Below, piece after piece: positions 20,556-36,305 of a DNA stretch of 64,000 nucleotides; position 1 is the first letter of the stretch; each line of letters begins with the position of its first letter. Location: NCBI RefSeq assembly GCF_024661895.1, contig NZ_CP102453.1, positions 496,001-560,000 of the forward strand, read 5' to 3'. The stretch comes from Fundicoccus culcitae (GTDB lineage Bacteria > Bacillota > Bacilli > Lactobacillales > Aerococcaceae). Below the pieces are notes generated by a model. That model ran no database searches, had not been told where the DNA came from, and saw only the letters and a program-made list of their open reading frames with translations. The position numbers were made by a program, and so were the translations under genes.

Positions 20556-21854
20556 TTATGGATAAATACGGTTTAATAAGCGTGGGAATGGTGCTGATTC
20601 GCGAATATGTTCGGTACCACAAATCCAAGTAACAGCCCGTTCTAATCCAATCCCAAATCCAGAGTGAGGAACACTACCATATTTACGTAAATCCAAATAC
20701 CATTGGTAAGTATCAACATCTAAACCAAATTTAATAATACTTTCTTTTAATGTTTCATAATCATCTTCACGTTCTGATCCTCCGATAATTTCGCCATAGC
20801 CTTCTGGCGCAATCATATCCGCACATAAAACAGTCCGTGGATCGTTAGGATTAACTTTCATATAAAAAGGTTTAATTGATTTTGGATAATTAACGATAAA
20901 AATAGGTTGCTCATATTGTGAAGCAATGAACGTTTCATGTGGTGAACCAAAATCATCGCCCCATTGAATGTCATCAAAACCATTCTTTTGTAGTAATTCA
21001 ACCGCTTCAGTATATTCAATTCTTGGATAAGGTAATTGTGTATATTTTTTTAATTGCTCCACATCACGTTCCAAGGTTGTTAGTGCTAATTGACAATTAT
21101 CGATGACCGATTGAACAATATAAGCCACATATTTTTCTTGCAAGGCTAAGGATTGTTCATGGTTATAGTTAGCCATTTCTGGTTCCATCATCCAAAACTC
21201 AATCAGATGCCGTCTTGTTTTCGATTTTTCAGCTCTAAAGGTTGGCCCAAAAGTAAATATTTTTCCAAAAGCCATCGCAGCTGCTTCAGCATACAATTGC
21301 CCACTTTGCGATAAATAGGCTTCTTCATCAAAATATTCCGTGTGGAACAATTCAGTCGTATTTTCAGGAGCACTTCCGGTTAATATCGGGGCATCAATTT
21401 TGACAAAGCCTTCTTGGCGCATAAATTGGTAAGTCGCATAAATTATTTCATCACGGATTGTCATAATGGCATGTTGTTTGGAAGAACGAAGCCATAAATG
21501 ACGATGATCCATCAAGAAATCTGTCCCATGTTCCTTAGGTGTAATTGGATAATCATGACTTTCACCAATGACTTCGATTTCTTTAACTAAAAGTTCATAA
21601 CCCAGTTTGCTTCGATCATCGACTTGAACGATGCCCACTATACGAACACTCGTTTCCTGCGTTAAATTTTTAGCTAAATCAAACGTTTCCTCAGTAACAT
21701 CATTTTTCACTACAATACCTTGAAAGTAAGCTTGACCATCACGTAATTGTAAAAAAGCAATCTTACCACTGCTTCGTTTATTAGTGACCCAGGCATAAAT
21801 TGTTACTTCTTGTTCAACATAATCGGCTGCTTGTCGCATCGTAATTGTATCCAT
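20556..21854 (-). CDS. asnS: Asparaginyl-tRNA synthetase
   Basis: This class IIb aminoacyl-tRNA synthetase charges tRNA-Asn. The 432 aa consist of an OB-fold anticodon-binding domain (about 1-105) and a catalytic domain with motif 2 ([21 protein letters not shown]) and motif 3 ([15 protein letters not shown]). HLWLRSSKQ and the length fit AsnRS rather than the longer bacterial AspRS. AGGAGG precedes the ATG. It follows ypmB with an 8-bp gap, matching the ypmB-asnS-dnaD order of Bacillus. Confidence 0.96.
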
Positions 21855-21862
21855 AAATCCTC

Positions 21863-22339
21863 CTAAATATTCTCAATTGTTTGTACCCATGTTCCATTGA
21901 CGGCATTAAGGTAGTAATAAGTTAAGGTGCCATTGGCATTACGCAACGTTATTTCCCATACTGGATTGTTGGCTAACTTCCCTAAGCGAGCTTGGATAAT
22001 ATCAACCTCACCCATATTGGCTAGCGTTAATTCTTTGGCTTGTGGTTCGGAAATAAGTTCATCATAGGTGTAATAATCCGTATCGCCACCTTCTTGACTA
22101 ATAATTGCATAACGTTGGACTTCTTGATTATCAAAAAAGTCTAAGCTAAAAAATGTTTCATCAAAGGTTACCCAATAGAATTCATTGACTTGTTTGACAG
22201 GGTAATCTACTTCAACGATAGCTACAGCTTCGTCTTCAGCTTGATAAATACTAGCCTGACTTTCCATAAAAAGCCAAAACATGCCCACGAGTATGACTAA
22301 TAAAATAATACTGATGGTTGTGACTGTTTTTCGACTCAA
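21863..22339 (-). CDS. ypmB: YpmB-like membrane-anchored DUF5590/PepSY-type protein
   Basis: This is a small protein with one N-terminal membrane helix ([17 protein letters not shown]) and an extracytoplasmic domain of about 130 residues resembling the tandem PepSY-like fold of YpmB/DUF5590. Its function is unknown. The longest frame starts at ATG 22357, but no ribosome site precedes that codon. A perfect AAGGAGG lies just inside the frame, eight bases before TTG 22339, so I start the 158-aa protein there (MSRKTVTT). It lies between dinG and asnS with short gaps, as in other Firmicutes. Confidence 0.8.
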
Positions 22340-22392
22340 GCTATTAGCCTCCTTCATTAAATCTATTTAATATAATACCGTAAAATAATCTA

Positions 22393-24921
22393 TTAGTCAT
22401 CGGAAATCGAAAAATTTAACCAAGGGTTTAAATTATTCCTAAGTTGATAAGAATAATACTTTGTATAGATCCGATCATCAAATAAATACACCTTATCATA
22501 TTCAGAATTAATGGCTAATTGTAAGAGTAAATCATTCAGTCGCGATTGCATTAAGGGCAAATGCAATTGATCAAATTCAAGATGGCTATCAAAGTGATAA
22601 TAATTGGCGATTGCGTTTAATAATGGAATTTTAGGATTAACAAACGGTAATCGCTGAATCAAAATCGAACGTTTTATCTCTGAAAAATCTAACTGTTGAC
22701 TAAAAACATTAGCCGAAGTTAAAATCAAAATACTATTTTCCATCTCATCCTGCCGTCGCAAAACCCGCTTTAAACTACCATGTATACCTGGACACAGCAC
22801 ACCAAACTGATTCATCAAGCTACTGGATTGTTTTAGCATTTGATAGGTTAATTCTTTGGCTTGTTGATTAGGCACAATTACTAATACACGCCGGTTGAGT
22901 TTGTTTTTTTGATCATTAATAAAGTCGATTTGTTGCTTAATAGCAGACACCTGATCAAGGGGTAAATCCTGATTATCTTCTACCCCATCACCCATTCCCC
23001 CTTCTTCATTCATATAAGCTAGAGGTACTTCAATCGTTAGGGATTGTTCCAGTTGATTAGGTAACTTAATTGGCGTAAAATCATTCTGTTTTAGCCACTG
23101 ATACGAACCTGTTTTTTGTTTATAATCATAAAAACGTCGACTAAATAAATAAACTTCTTGTTGAGGATGTTGAACAAAGGGATTTTCAATAAATAACGGC
23201 CGTGAAATCAATTCAATATCATGAATAAATTGATTCGTGCTTTGCGCTTTAACGAGAGAGTATACGCCATTTTCAAGCCATTTAAAGTCCAGAATTAATT
23301 GCATTAATTGTTGTAAGCGGTAGTCCGTTGTCATTGTCGATTGCTTTAATTTTTTTTGAATATCAAAAGCAATACTGCTTATTACATCGAGCGTGTGATC
23401 AATGGATAGCTCTCTAACATCGGCTGGACTTAAATAACTTTCTACCCGATTGACCGAACTAAAAACGGCTTTTTCTTTCAACACATAGTGTTTTAAAATG
23501 TCTAACAATTGATAAACAGCATCAATTAATTGATTTAATAGACTGGCAATGTCAGAGTCACCGGCTTGAATGCTTGCTTGATAAACGTAATAGTCAAATA
23601 CGGACTGAAGTTCAGTAAACAATTGACTCACCGGTAATTTTTTTTGTTGAAGATAGCGCTCTTTCTCAATCCAATCCTCGTAGTTTAAAATCAGTATGCT
23701 CCGCTTTTTTAAATAGTTTTCCCTTTCCAACAGCGCTTTTGATAGCATTTGGGTTTCGATTAAAATAACATCCGCCGTTTTTGTCCGCTTAAGTAAAGCT
23801 TGATAGTAAAAATTTGTCTGATTAACTAAGGTTGAACGACAATATTTTTCTAATAAAGATTGGACCACTAATTCTTCACGGATTTCAGCATAGTCACCCG
23901 TTTTTGTTTGCTTAAGCCAACGAATGGTAGCTGCAATACTAATAATTTCCTGCTGATTGAGTGTATCGACTTCTTTTTCCACTAGTAGTTCTTCAAACGC
24001 AGCTAAATGGATAAATTCTTTGGGCTTTTTTATGACGACGACTTCCCTATGTCTTTTCAACCCACTTAACTGATCTGAAAACCAGTTTAAACTGTTCATC
24101 GATTCAACACCGACAACAATTGATTTAGTTAAAGCAATTTGACTGATTACTTCGATAAGTTCGGTGTTTTTGATTGAAGGGTTCATCTTCTCAAAAATAA
24201 TTCTAATGTCAGTCCTTTGCATGTTTTCAACAATCAATTGACTGAGTAATGAAAAATCAGCCGCGTCTTTTGGGACTTGATTGACTATCATGACTTCACG
24301 GTTAATATCTGTTGTTATCCTAAATTCTTTTGGATTAATAAATAAAGCCTGTTCATCATTAGGTAGTTGTCTAATATATGGCATCATTTTTTGGAAGGTT
24401 TGCTTATCTAAACTTAGAACTTCATCGGCTAACTTTGATAGTAATTGCATCGTAAGAAAAGCATCCGAGGCAGCGTCATGAGCATCTGTATAAGGTATTT
24501 GATAATATTGAGCCAATTGGGTTAAGTTGAAGCCGTCTGCCCATGGAACCAAGATTTTCGCTAATTTTACAGTATCTAAAGCAATGGGTTGGAAATCGAT
24601 TTGATTAGCCCACATAAAACTTTCTTGTAACATAACTAAGTCAAAAGCTAAATTATGCGCAATAATTACACAGTCTTTTAGCCGCTCATACCATAAAGAT
24701 GCTACTTGTTTAAAGGTCGGTGCTTTTTCAACAACTTCCTGACTGATACCTGTCAGCTGTTGAATATGCTGAGGTATCGTTATTTCAGGATTGATATACA
24801 TATTATGTTGCCCAAGGATTTGACCTTCTTGATAAATAACCGCTGCGATTTGAATCATTCTGTCCCCTTTTTCAAAATTAGGACCCGTTGCTTCAATATC
24901 AACGACAGCAATTTTGCGCAT
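22393..24921 (-). CDS. dinG: DinG-family exonuclease with a degenerate helicase domain
   Basis: This 842-aa protein has the Firmicutes DinG architecture: an N-terminal DEDDh 3'-5' exonuclease (about 1-170) fused to an XPD-like helicase region. The start ATG 24921 has GAGGT eight bases upstream and is preferred over 24936. The exonuclease residues are complete: D8, E10 (DIEATG), D94 (AHNLAFD), H148 and D153 (HDAASD). The helicase part is unusual. The Walker A position reads EKMNPSIKNT (about 244-253), the DEAH position LILNYEDW (about 410-417), and the terminal motif VI has no QGxGRxIR. No GK[ST] occurs anywhere in the protein, and an iron-sulfur cysteine cluster is also absent. Only LPFVNPKIP and DDRIYTKYY survive as family marks. 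Confidence 0.88.
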   Translation of the reverse strand: MRKIAVVDIEATGPNFEKGDRMIQIAAVIYQEGQILGQHNMYINPEITIPQHIQQLTGISQEVVEKAPTFKQVASLWYERLKDCVIIAHNLAFDLVMLQESFMWANQIDFQPIALDTVKLAKILVPWADGFNLTQLAQYYQIPYTDAHDAASDAFLTMQLLSKLADEVLSLDKQTFQKMMPYIRQLPNDEQALFINPKEFRITTDINREVMIVNQVPKDAADFSLLSQLIVENMQRTDIRIIFEKMNPSIKNTELIEVISQIALTKSIVVGVESMNSLNWFSDQLSGLKRHREVVVIKKPKEFIHLAAFEELLVEKEVDTLNQQEIISIAATIRWLKQTKTGDYAEIREELVVQSLLEKYCRSTLVNQTNFYYQALLKRTKTADVILIETQMLSKALLERENYLKKRSILILNYEDWIEKERYLQQKKLPVSQLFTELQSVFDYYVYQASIQAGDSDIASLLNQLIDAVYQLLDILKHYVLKEKAVFSSVNRVESYLSPADVRELSIDHTLDVISSIAFDIQKKLKQSTMTTDYRLQQLMQLILDFKWLENGVYSLVKAQSTNQFIHDIELISRPLFIENPFVQHPQQEVYLFSRRFYDYKQKTGSYQWLKQNDFTPIKLPNQLEQSLTIEVPLAYMNEEGGMGDGVEDNQDLPLDQVSAIKQQIDFINDQKNKLNRRVLVIVPNQQAKELTYQMLKQSSSLMNQFGVLCPGIHGSLKRVLRRQDEMENSILILTSANVFSQQLDFSEIKRSILIQRLPFVNPKIPLLNAIANYYHFDSHLEFDQLHLPLMQSRLNDLLLQLAINSEYDKVYLFDDRIYTKYYSYQLRNNLNPWLNFSISDD

Positions 24922-24932
24922 GTAAGATGACC

Positions 24933-26174
24933 TCATTTCTTTGGATCGGCTACATAGGCCTCCACAAACTTTTCAATTGCATCTTTTGTGTTTTCCATTT
25001 GACGCAGTATAATTCTTTCTTCAATAATCGCTAAAAGTTCACCGACAATAGGTTGCCCTTTTTTTAGATTCAATAAAGCCATGATATCTTTGCCATTGAC
25101 CGCCATGTCATTACGTCTCTTAATCGGTAAATCATCCAAACGCTGTTGAACGGATGGTTGAATCACTACACCTATCGCCTGCATGTATTGCTCCACTTCA
25201 AATAAGATATCGTTGGGATAATGATAAATAATTTGTGGGCTTAATTGATTAGTCTCAAATACAGGTATTAACTCAGTGATATGCTTGACATCTTTAATCA
25301 ACTGATTACTATGTGTCCATACTTTTAAAAAGTGTTGCTTATCAACAACAGATTGATAAGGTAACTCCATTAATAATAATGCCCAACTCATCGCTTCCGA
25401 AAACACATAAGGATAATCAATCATCGCTTGATATTTATTGGATAGCTGGTCTAAAACCGCTTGAATATTTAAAATATTCAACATGGGAAGATGTTGGTAA
25501 ATGCGTGAATCAATTAATAACTGGTAACTGTTAGCAAAATAATCACCTTGTAAAAATTTTGTCATCTCAACACGAATTCGTTCCATCGAAACTTGATTAA
25601 GATTTTTAGCTAAGGCTTTCATAGAACGAAAGGTCTCACCGTCTACTTCAAAGCCTAATTGCGAGGCAAATCGAATAGCGCGGAAAATTCTTAACGCATC
25701 TTCATGAAAGCGTTCCATCGGATTGCCGACGGCTCGGATTACCTTGGCATCCAAATCTAATTTACCGCCATGGTAATCATAAAGTTTACCCTTAATATCA
25801 AAAGCTAAAGCATTAATCGTAAAATCACGTCTTAAAGTATCTTCTTGTAAATCCCTTACAAATTTAACATTATCCGGATGCCGATAATCACTATAAGTAT
25901 CTTCCGTTCTAAAGGTCGTAATTTCATACGTTTCTTGTTGCCAGACAACAATCACAGTCCCATGTTTTTTCCCTAAATCAATGGTATTTGAAAAGATAGC
26001 TTCGACTTCTTCAGGACGTGCACTGGTAGCAATATCGATATCATGAATAGGCAAATTCAATAAGGTGTCTCTAACACATCCCCCAACAAAATAAGCCTCA
26101 TAACCATGAGACTCAATTTGCTTCATAACTGATTTAGCTTTTTGAAAAAGTGGATTTGCCAAACTATAATTCAT
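24933..26174 (-). CDS. cca: CCA-adding tRNA nucleotidyltransferase
   Basis: This enzyme builds or repairs the 3' CCA end of tRNAs using CTP and ATP without a template. The 413 aa contain the class II head domain with GGCVRD (32-37), the DxD metal site (HDIDIA) and RRDFTINALAFD, then the neck segment RFHEDALRIFRAIRFASQLGF that selects nucleotides, and helical body and tail domains. The start overlaps the ypiB stop by 11 bp, with AAAGGAAG upstream. dinG follows 11 nt behind its stop codon. Confidence 0.96.
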   Translation of the reverse strand: MNYSLANPLFQKAKSVMKQIESHGYEAYFVGGCVRDTLLNLPIHDIDIATSARPEEVEAIFSNTIDLGKKHGTVIVVWQQETYEITTFRTEDTYSDYRHPDNVKFVRDLQEDTLRRDFTINALAFDIKGKLYDYHGGKLDLDAKVIRAVGNPMERFHEDALRIFRAIRFASQLGFEVDGETFRSMKALAKNLNQVSMERIRVEMTKFLQGDYFANSYQLLIDSRIYQHLPMLNILNIQAVLDQLSNKYQAMIDYPYVFSEAMSWALLLMELPYQSVVDKQHFLKVWTHSNQLIKDVKHITELIPVFETNQLSPQIIYHYPNDILFEVEQYMQAIGVVIQPSVQQRLDDLPIKRRNDMAVNGKDIMALLNLKKGQPIVGELLAIIEERIILRQMENTKDAIEKFVEAYVADPKK

Positions 26175-28164: not shown

Positions 28165-28197
<33 letters not shown>

Positions 28198-28240
28198 TCG
28201 AGTAGGAGACTAGTCATTAATTGACTAGTCGACCTCTCAC

Positions 28241-28274
28241 ACCACCGTGCGTACGGTTCCGTACACGGCGGTTC
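28241..28274 (-). ncRNA. Group II intron domain V
   Basis: Thirty-four nucleotides starting GAACCGCCGTGTACGG and ending ACGCACGGTGGT form the short helical hairpin of domain V, the catalytic centre of the intron RNA. It lies 43 nt from the proposed 3' splice site, the expected spacing with domain VI in between. Confidence 0.85.
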
Positions 28275-28291
28275 AATAACTTAAATATCTT

Positions 28292-29613
28292 TTATCGCTC
28301 ATATAAGTAGGTTAGATCCTTCAATCCCCAGATAGCGAGCCTTTTGTTTGTGATGGCTCGGTGTAAAATTTCACTCCGTGAAAGTCTCCAATAAGCCTTA
28401 CGACTCCCTGCCATCTTGAGCGAATCATCATGGTCTATGCCTAGTCGCCTAAGTTGTGTATACCGAGTGGATACTTTCTTCCATCTTTTCCAGATGAGCT
28501 GTCGCAATCGATGATTCAACCAGCTCTGAGTTTCTATCATGAAAGATTTCATAAAACCAATTTTGTAGTAATTTATCCACCCTACAGTCACTCGATTGAT
28601 TTCTACTACTATATCTTCAAATGACCCAGGTCGATTACGACGAGTTAACTTCTTGAGCTTGGTGCGAAACTTTTGTTTAGCCGACTGACTAGGTCGGCAT
28701 CCTACTTTCCCGTGCTATTATGAATATGAAACCCCAGGAATTTAGATTGGGTGGGTGTCGTCACTCGGCTTTTTTCCTTATTCACCGTTAGACGTAATTT
28801 CCCTTCAATAAAGTCTGTAATACCTTCCATCACACGTTCGCCTGCCCGTCTACTCTTTACATAGATGACAAAATCATCCGCGTATCGAGCGAACTTATGA
28901 CCTCTACGCTCAAGCTCCCTGTCTAAATGGTGTAAATAGACATTCGCTAGTAACGGAGATAAGGGGCCTCCTTGTGGTGTTCCCATATCCGTTTCAACAT
29001 AAAAGCCTTGGTCCAGGATGCCTGATTTAAGAAAGTTCCAGATAATTCTTAAAACAACTTTATCCTGAATATAGTATTCAAGATTATTTCTAAGAATTTG
29101 ATGGTTGATGGTATCGAAATAATTCTTCAAATCACAGTCTACTACTACACGATAACCTTCTTCGTAGTAACTGATGACTCGTGCCACCGCTTGATGAGCG
29201 TTGCGACCTTTTCGAAAACCGTAACTAAATTCAGAGAAATGCGGGTCAATTATCGGGTCAATCACTTGAAGTATCGCTTGTTGTACGACTCTATCCCTTA
29301 CCGTTGGAATACCCAAAAGGCGGACTCCACCGTTAGCTTTGGGTATTTCAACTCGTTTCACAGGTTGTGGTTGATAGGTTCCAGCCTTGAGCTTTCGAAC
29401 AATGGCTGACCCATAAGTCGCCATATGTTCGTCTAGTTCATTAACCGTCATCCCGTCTACACCGGGTGCTCCCTTATTTTTGCGAACTTTAGCGATAGCT
29501 TGTTCCATGTTTGTTTGACTGACTACTTGGTCAATCAGTAAGATATCATTTTGTTTATTCATATCTGTGCTACGACACCTCCGCACTCCTACATATCTTT
29601 TTGCTTCCAGCAT
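28292..29613 (-). pseudogene. ltrA: Group II intron reverse transcriptase/maturase, frameshifted
   Basis: The intron-encoded protein is split into two frames. The first part (from 29613, or from ATG 29562 as MNKQNDILL) carries reverse-transcriptase blocks ending with ARYADDFVIY, so the catalytic YADD is intact, and it stops at 28702 after FLGFHIHNSTGK. The second part continues in another frame from VGCRPSQSAKQKF through the maturase X domain (GWINYY, YWRLSRSEILHR) to a stop at 28292. There is no HNH endonuclease domain, as in class C. One extra A in the AAA at 28706-28708 would restore about 423-440 aa. It may be a real inactivating deletion or a sequencing error. Confidence 0.88.
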
Positions 29614-30072
29614 ATCCTTCTGTAGGCAGCCATCTCTTCGAACTTAATCACGATGTTGTCTGCGTTATCGGTGACGTATCCACCTCCTTGATTTTCAAAA
29701 TTGTTATTGTTCTGTCCTTCCTAGCTATAGGCTAGTACTATGACGTCTGCTGACTTCTCATCATTCGTTGTTACTACGATTAACTATCGTTGATGAGACC
29801 TCCCCGGGTAAGAATGACAACCTTCCACTCATGTCACTGCTTCATCTACTGTATGGGATTCGTGCAGTATTGGACTTTACTTTGTAAGGCAAGCTCGTCC
29901 GTCCCTGTTCAGCCTTAATATGAAGTTTCTGTTCGTCAGTGCGAGTGTTTGCCTCCGGCTTCCTTCAGATTCCACCTCACGATGGACACCCTTGCCTTTA
30001 GCTAACAGTTCCTACTGCCAAGCCTGTAGTGGACTTTCACCACCAAGTTGTCACCCATGCCGGGCGCACCTC

Positions 30073-36134: not shown

Positions 36135-36170
36135 ATTAATTATCTAAATTTAGATAAATTGCACAAAATT

Positions 36171-36283
36171 CTTCTTCCATCCAGACTGTACTGTCGGTAC
36201 TGGAATTACACCAGATCGGCCTTAACATAATGTTTAGGTTCGTGGACTTTACCACCGGTCGGGAATTTCACCCTGCCCTGAAG
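36171..36283 (-). promoter_or_regulatory. FMN riboswitch aptamer (RFN element)
   Basis: The minus strand shows the conserved blocks of the RFN element in order: CTTCAGGGCAGGGTGAAATT, CCCGACCGGTGGTAAAGTCC, CACGAACC, GGCCGATCTGGTGTAATTCC, AGTACCGACAGTACAGTC and TGGATGGAAGAAG. It controls the ribU gene through the terminator at 36090-36134. Confidence 0.97.
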
Positions 36284-36305
36284 ACGTTATTTAATTTATA
36301 AATTC

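Follow-up and report, generated by a model that had tools for sequence, protein, structure and literature searches.

An ExoDinG without ATPase motifs, with intact exonuclease residues and retained strand-contact residues, in Fundicoccus culcitae and related genomes

The dinG locus and its neighbours

The analysed DNA (the window, a stretch of 64,000 nucleotides to which all coordinates refer) belongs to the 3.22 Mb genome of Fundicoccus culcitae, which is assembled as one contig. Its dinG gene lies on the reverse strand among the following features:

20532-20505, 3' of asnS: terminator-like hairpin, a consensus match (4 such hairpins found vs 4.7 expected)
20556..21854, (-): asnS, the next gene downstream, above the NCBIfam cut-off of PRK03932
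21863..22357, (-): ypmB/tseB-like gene (PepSY), directly downstream of dinG; PepSY score of 22.6 bits, slightly short of the cut-off (24)
22393..24921, (-): dinG (ExoDinG), 842 amino acids plus stop in an uninterrupted open frame; the helicase motor lacks ATPase motifs
24933..26174, (-): cca (tRNA nucleotidyltransferase), directly upstream of dinG, above the NCBIfam cut-off of PRK13299

The PepSY gene at 21863..22357 is presumably ypmB. The start codon of dinG is the ATG at 24921, with a GAGG nine bases 5' of it, and another ATG in the same frame, at 24936, shares the sequence ATGA with the stop codon of cca. A cca and a ypmB-like gene flank dinG in all 22 loci that were examined from the clade of relatives described below, in which the ATPase motifs are lost as well. 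At 104 loci with an intact dinG, for which flanks of limited length were available, the same queries found YpmB 64 times, AsnS 67 times and Cca 35 times. Since dinG encodes the sole PF13307 protein of the genome and these flanks recur throughout the clade loci, the window gene is an ordinary chromosomal dinG at its ancestral locus, which was vertically inherited. A second DinG/XPD helicase that replaces the motor was rejected, as the only PF13307 match is dinG itself. A search of the genome with PF06733 gave no match either, with the restriction that this is a weak search whose control set also misses B. subtilis.

Two further elements were observed in the window. A group II intron at 28197-29986 (-) was recognized by Rfam matches to D1-D4-3, D1-D4-1 and the catalytic core, and its reverse transcriptase frame is broken into two ORFs (303 and 99 amino acids). 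We take its neighbours to be a gene for a TPR-like protein on one side and an HU-like gene on the other. An FMN riboswitch was found at 36165-36289 (-) with 115 bits.

Loss of the ATPase motifs and its distribution

The window protein has the architecture of an ExoDinG, i.e., an N-terminal DEDDh exonuclease followed by MD1, arch, pseudo-FeS domain (pFeS) and motor domain 2 (MD2). The following parts are discussed first:

24421..24921, (-): DEDDh 3'-5' exonuclease domain (Pfam RNase_T), residues ~1-167, with D8, E10, D94, H148 and D153
24163..24192, (-): former Walker A loop, residues 244-253 (EKMNPSIKNT), from alignment columns
23674..23688, (-): former DEAH box, residues 412-416 (LNYED), from alignment columns
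22396..23040, (-): MD2, residues ~628-842, with a Helicase_C_2 match at 674-833
22519..22533, (-): former motif VI (QxxGR), residues 797-801 (DLLLQ), from alignment columns

RNase_T matches residues 6-161 with an E-value of 3.7e-26, and the exonuclease domain reaches a pLDDT of 90-98 in the AlphaFold2 model. The original prediction of a full-length DinG with its DEDDh residues in place was borne out, with 842 codons free of stops and all five residues invariant in a 22-member alignment. They are likewise kept in 42 of 42 decayed copies, that is, those without intact ATPase motifs, from the family of the window genome and from outside of it.

In the helicase part, Helicase_C_2 (PF13307) matches residues 674-833 narrowly above its cut-off (E 4e-07, 30.7 vs 25.3 bits). 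EKMNPSIKNT and LNYED align with the columns that hold the P-loop and the DEAH box in intact DinGs and DLLLQ falls on the motif VI column, in agreement with the predicted loss of all three motifs; the Walker A, DEAH and motif VI signatures of an active superfamily 2 DinG/XPD helicase are absent. A P-loop relocated elsewhere was rejected, as the 842 residues of the window protein contain no GK[ST] at all. Its three cysteines are scattered (84, 361 and 710), and the four-cysteine set of an FeS-cluster DinG/XPD is missing, as had been predicted. Because a pseudo-FeS domain is described for the ExoDinGs of Bacillales and Lactobacillales (PMC11981726), this absence is no peculiarity of the window copy.

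With S. aureus-based residue numbers (G279, G281, K282, W370, E449 etc.), none of the 29 clade members has any of the P-loop residues G279, G281 and K282 or the motif II residue E449, whereas all 135 intact relatives have each of them. The glycines of motifs V and VI are absent from all 29 as well, and the motif VI arginine from 28. Among six other decayed copies of the family, a single aligned K282 and a single aligned E449 persist. Aligned columns were used for these counts in place of a loose DExH text pattern, which gave matches in 9 of the 29 clade members, all of them devoid of the motif II glutamate. Judged from the sequence, ATP binding by the window protein is very unlikely. A remodelled pocket that still binds a nucleotide in a non-canonical way, and thereby regulates the nuclease, would suit the apparent conservation of the MD1 and MD2 fold in the model described below. 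However, none of the P-loop, motif II and motif VI residues persists in the window protein, no other GK[ST] could take their place, and the losses extend over the entire clade, so we give this reading hardly any credence. The original prediction had also described S. aureus DinG (SaDinG) as a nuclease without helicase activity; this has been overtaken by a study from 2025, which reports 5'-3' helicase activity and ascribes the inhibition of the nuclease by ATP to metal chelation and a lower DNA affinity (PMC12345164).

The distribution of the loss was followed in several sets of genomes. A first set consisted of the window genome and 59 relatives, and a dinG ORF was found in 59 of these 60 genomes. 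Another 73 sequences, drawn from 80 named loci, were added to give an alignment of 132 DinGs, 28 of them without and 104 with ATPase motifs; five of the latter have DETQ or DEGH, for which a strict pattern initially classed them as mixed. Within the family, dinG is present in 76 of 76 genomes examined, with 35 decayed copies and 41 counted as intact, of which 40 were verified, as the 41 include a copy with a split frame in which the P-loop alone was seen (G066). In this draft genome, dinG (L229) lies in two frames of 446 and 522 amino acids, while the motifs are intact in those congeners that were read; the split is due to an assembly error or to a recent disruption.

The main decayed group comprises 29 genomes from 14 genera, which were assigned to one clade. 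On a PolC tree, 22 of them form one clade with a support of 100, and the other seven were assigned by profile score and genus codes shared with tree members. The decayed state is old and common to 29 of the 76 family genomes, and the window gene is not a single odd copy. Six further decayed family copies occur in three genera, and five of them are represented on the PolC tree. Since the best 40-row tree separates these five from the main clade (with decayed G010, G018 and G030 beside intact G009 and G025, support 98), while an AU test did not reject a single clade of the 27 decayed family genomes on the tree (p 0.257) and a 38-row tree joins the pair G013/G028 to the main clade with weak support (31), the motor was lost one to three times within the family. 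The 38-row tree and the AU analysis were calculated without G039 and G053, which have long branches.

At the level of the order, 295 genomes were sampled, 47 of them from the window's family, and 294 have a DinG match at 1e-60 or better. Eight order genomes with weak, missing or doubtful matches were inspected. The ATPase motifs are lost in G106 and G288 (family code f3) and in G315 and G272 (f9), whereas GKT is kept and motifs II and VI are gone in G207 and G255 (f9). In G271, all motifs are present in pieces, seemingly split by assembly gaps, and in G040 no dinG match was found at an E-value of 1e-25 beyond the PolC exonuclease. Furthermore, the copy of G039 (f5) is decayed, with DEA remaining at motif II. 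Decayed copies from outside the family thereby number at least seven, for a total of 42; seven is a lower bound, with copies of middling score read in part (G315 and G106, at ~600 bits, were decayed). Because the copies read before in four f3 and three f9 genomes are intact, the f3 and f9 losses were very probably independent of the window's loss. The ExoDinGs of G255 and G207 (L263 and L264) look intermediate, with GKT present, METP[TS]Q at motif II and the strand-contact residues of MD2 gone.

Retained strand-contact residues, fold and selection

Among the helicase columns, 36 are conserved to at least 95% in the 104 intact proteins. Just seven of these are kept to at least 90% in the 22-member clade, namely L802, P803, F804, F823, D856, R858 and Y864. 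In the crystal structure of SaDinG, the MD2 residues F804, F823, R858 and Y864 are located at the ssDNA, and they have been mutated (PMC12345164). All four contacts are among the 36 columns and all four are among the surviving seven (hypergeometric p = 5.9e-4). Together with the pseudo-FeS signature, they are located in the window as follows:

22642..22644, (-): F760, equivalent to SaDinG F804 by alignment, ssDNA stacking (role from PMC12345164)
22573..22575, (-): F783, equivalent to SaDinG F823 by alignment, ssDNA stacking (role from PMC12345164)
22471..22473, (-): R817, equivalent to SaDinG R858 by alignment, ssDNA contact (role from PMC12345164)
22453..22455, (-): Y823, equivalent to SaDinG Y864 by alignment, ssDNA contact (role from PMC12345164)
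23884..23919, (-): pseudo-FeS-domain signature W335..G342..E346, for the most part retained across the clade

Each of the four residues is kept in 29 of 29 clade members and in all six other decayed family copies. The ATPase residues of the same MD2 serve as an internal control for this retention, as E785, G786, Q837, G840 and R841 remain in 4, 0, 4, 0 and 1 of the 29 clade members, respectively. The earlier proposal that the domain is kept as a scaffold or nucleic-acid clamp has thus gained residue-level support for the clamp, with the four contacts present in 35 of 35 decayed family copies. Outside the family, all four are kept in two of seven decayed copies (G106 and G288) and not in the other five (G039, G315, G272, G207 and G255), so that the grip is retained in 37 of 42 decayed copies overall, but not by rule. 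Other positions are more variable: the basic contact K801 is K or R in 15 and the MD1 residue K336 is K in 11 of the 29 clade members, while W370, G377 and E381 of the pseudo-FeS signature are kept in 26, 24 and 26 of them. A clade-specific LNQxEL stretch lies N-terminal to this signature, with N322, Q323, E325 and L326 at 82-86%.

Folding could be the reason why these four residues are kept, and this would speak against strand holding. The helicase remnant would then be a structural scaffold that stabilizes the exonuclease alone, with the four residues packing against it, and the conserved length and predicted fold as well as the retention of L802, P803 and D856 are in line with this. However, in SaDinG three of these side chains are aromatic and stack on bases or riboses, while the remaining one provides an arginine contact, and their exchange affects DNA handling: Kd more than doubled in F804A and F823A, the affinity was moderately lower in R858A and Y864A, and none of the four mutants unwound DNA (PMC12345164). 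We consider a scaffold without strand holding unlikely, albeit the strongest of the competing readings. Still less probable is that the remnant is a docking platform, either for RecA and PolA as in B. subtilis or for the translation machinery encoded next door, by means of surface motifs such as LNQxEL. Such a role would agree with the interaction of B. subtilis DinG with RecA and PolA (PMC12525004), with the clade-specific residues of this stretch and with the constant cca-dinG-ypmB neighbourhood of the 22 clade loci, but ypmB-like, asnS or cca genes also lie beside many intact dinG copies.

A fold model had been proposed as a check of the nucleotide pocket. The AlphaFold2 model, calculated from 75 sequences, has a mean pLDDT of 79.2 and a pTM of 0.73 and corresponds to SaDinG from end to end (Foldseek E 2.9e-35; VIA Z 27.4 and 4.8 A over 736 residues against 9ii8), with a pLDDT below 50 at residues 207-254, where the former P-loop is included. 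The underlying alignment consists mostly of intact DinGs, on which the model may lean, and a control calculated from two decayed sequences alone gave an uninformative pLDDT of 35. A profile of 22 relatives matches residues 3-874 of SaDinG (8zef) with an E-value of 2.8e-76, and this match is free of the bias towards intact DinGs because the profile was built from the decayed clade alone. With regards to both approaches, the fold of MD1 and MD2 appears to be kept along the whole length.

The selection on the helicase part, likewise suggested as a check, was estimated as dN/dS by Nei-Gojobori for three decayed and six intact pairs. These are relatives of the window copy, as no second genome of the window's genus was found. 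For the decayed pairs, omega was 0.105-0.155 in MD1 and arch, 0.095-0.107 in MD2 and 0.024-0.053 in the exonuclease, compared to 0.039-0.172, 0.051-0.118 and 0.040-0.120 for the intact pairs, three of which stem from one genome trio. Synonymous saturation is close in four of the nine pairs (two decayed, two intact), in which dS exceeds 1 for two or all of the three parts. For the decayed pair that is unsaturated, G024/G034 (dS ~0.3), the values were 0.105 for MD1 and arch and 0.095 for MD2. In related pairs, the helicase remnant is clearly under purifying selection. With YN00, the same decayed pair had an omega of 0.235 after the exonuclease, vs 0.137-0.178 in four intact pairs, and the constraint on the remnant is perhaps somewhat weaker than in intact relatives.

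A recent pseudogene was rejected in view of open frames across the clade and an omega of ~0.1. Neutral decay, in which the unselected motor merely awaits deletion, would match the low identity of clade members to the window protein (24-34%, with seven invariant columns outside the exonuclease), the somewhat raised YN00 omega in one decayed pair and the lost grip of the five decayed copies outside the family. On the other hand, the frames from stop to stop span 832-863 codons in all but one of the 29 clade copies (the exception, G060, has 768 in a genome that is 77% complete), the Nei-Gojobori omega is ~0.1 in both motor parts, and specific residues are invariant across the clade. We therefore disfavour neutral decay and regard it as very improbable.

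Proposed mechanism and comparison with known systems

We favour, with moderate confidence, that the window gene encodes a vertically inherited ExoDinG which now acts as an ATP-independent 3'-5' exonuclease, with the former motor passively holding the strand. The DEDDh domain would remove nucleotides from the 3' end of ssDNA and/or RNA. The two RecA-like domains are expected to keep their fold and neither bind nor hydrolyse ATP, which would preclude translocation and unwinding. Instead, MD2, with F760, F783, R817 and Y823, and probably the pseudo-FeS domain would grip the strand for the active site. Such a static holder would set the affinity and the final product length, and strands shorter than the combined footprint of MD2 and exonuclease would fall off.

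Exonuclease activity without the motor has precedents, as the 3'-5' activity is kept in the Walker A mutant K290A of B. subtilis DinG (PMC12525004) and in the DEAH mutant E465A of L. monocytogenes DinG (PMC12774634). The role of MD2 as the holder is deduced from the SaDinG crystal, which shows seven nucleotides on MD2 and four on Exo, 11 in total (PMC12345164), and from the products of 11 +/- 2 nt that B. subtilis DinG forms at limiting enzyme (PMC12525004). The motor does matter somewhere, since ATPase-dead DinG did not restore mitomycin C resistance in S. aureus, where crosslink repair needs both DinG activities (PMC12345164). Crosslink repair should not be supported by the window enzyme, and its cellular role may rather be in the turnover of R-loops, stalled forks or rRNA; cutting-only roles at R-loops, stalled forks or immature rRNA could be feasible.

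Among the closest known systems are other ExoDinGs. SaDinG (8zef, 9ii8) has the same domain order, predicted fold, DEDDh site, pseudo-FeS domain and four MD2 contacts, but it carries the P-loop, DEAH and QGxGR motifs together with the reported 5'-3' helicase activity (PMC12345164), while the window protein lacks these motifs. The DinGs of B. subtilis and L. monocytogenes are ExoDinGs as well, and their exonuclease works in ATPase-motif mutants (PMC12525004, PMC12774634). Their wild types differ in carrying the ATPase motifs, as read here in the B. spizizenii copy (L099), and B. subtilis DinG is an ssDNA-stimulated ATPase.

The subgroups in the ExoDinG review include pExoDinG and sDinG (PMC11981726). 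The Caulobacter-type pExoDinG is similar in being ExoDinG-like with one of two enzymes predicted to be dead, but it is the mirror image of the window protein, as its exonuclease centre is incomplete and its ATPase site is kept (PMC11981726); the window protein, with its exonuclease residues kept and its ATPase site gone, does not belong to this subgroup. The cyanobacterial sDinG is also DinG-like, with an ATP site for which a block is predicted; however, it consists of MD1, MD2 and arch only, without exonuclease, FeS or pFeS domain (PMC11981726). Hna, an anti-phage protein likened to ExoDinG, has kept its ATP motifs (PMC13381803). In AddB and RecC, a dead helicase fold is reused within a nuclease complex to bind ssDNA at the old tracking site (PMC4824097). 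Unlike the window protein, these belong to superfamily 1, recognize Chi and work beside an active motor, and the likeness is one of analogy only, not of membership.

An ATPase-dead ExoDinG is not named in the available part of the review (PMC11981726), and no report of one was found in the open-access literature. It appears to be an undescribed ExoDinG variant, and the main new result is the retention of the four MD2 contacts amid the loss of the motifs. As the ATPase motor is lost while the strand-holding residues are kept, this suggests that the old motor is now a passive grip. More tentatively, and with somewhat less than even confidence, we propose a recurrent route in Lactobacillales from a helicase-nuclease motor to a passive grip, in which a holding exonuclease would be the selected core of ExoDinG and crosslink repair would be dispensable.

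The evidence on the purpose of the helicase half of ExoDinG is divided, with S. aureus needing both activities for crosslink repair and the mutants of B. subtilis and Listeria keeping the exonuclease without the ATPase. A clade that has dispensed with the motor but retains the residues for cutting and for strand contact amounts to a separation-of-function experiment by nature, from which the phenotypes that require no more than holding and cutting can be predicted. In addition, a DinG of the window type offers an ATP-free protein for structural work. For annotation, the label 'DinG helicase' would misstate the activity of decayed copies, and the window DinG scores below the NCBIfam DinG cut-offs, with 209.7 vs 547.7 bits for TIGR01407 and 209.8 vs 789 bits for PRK08074.
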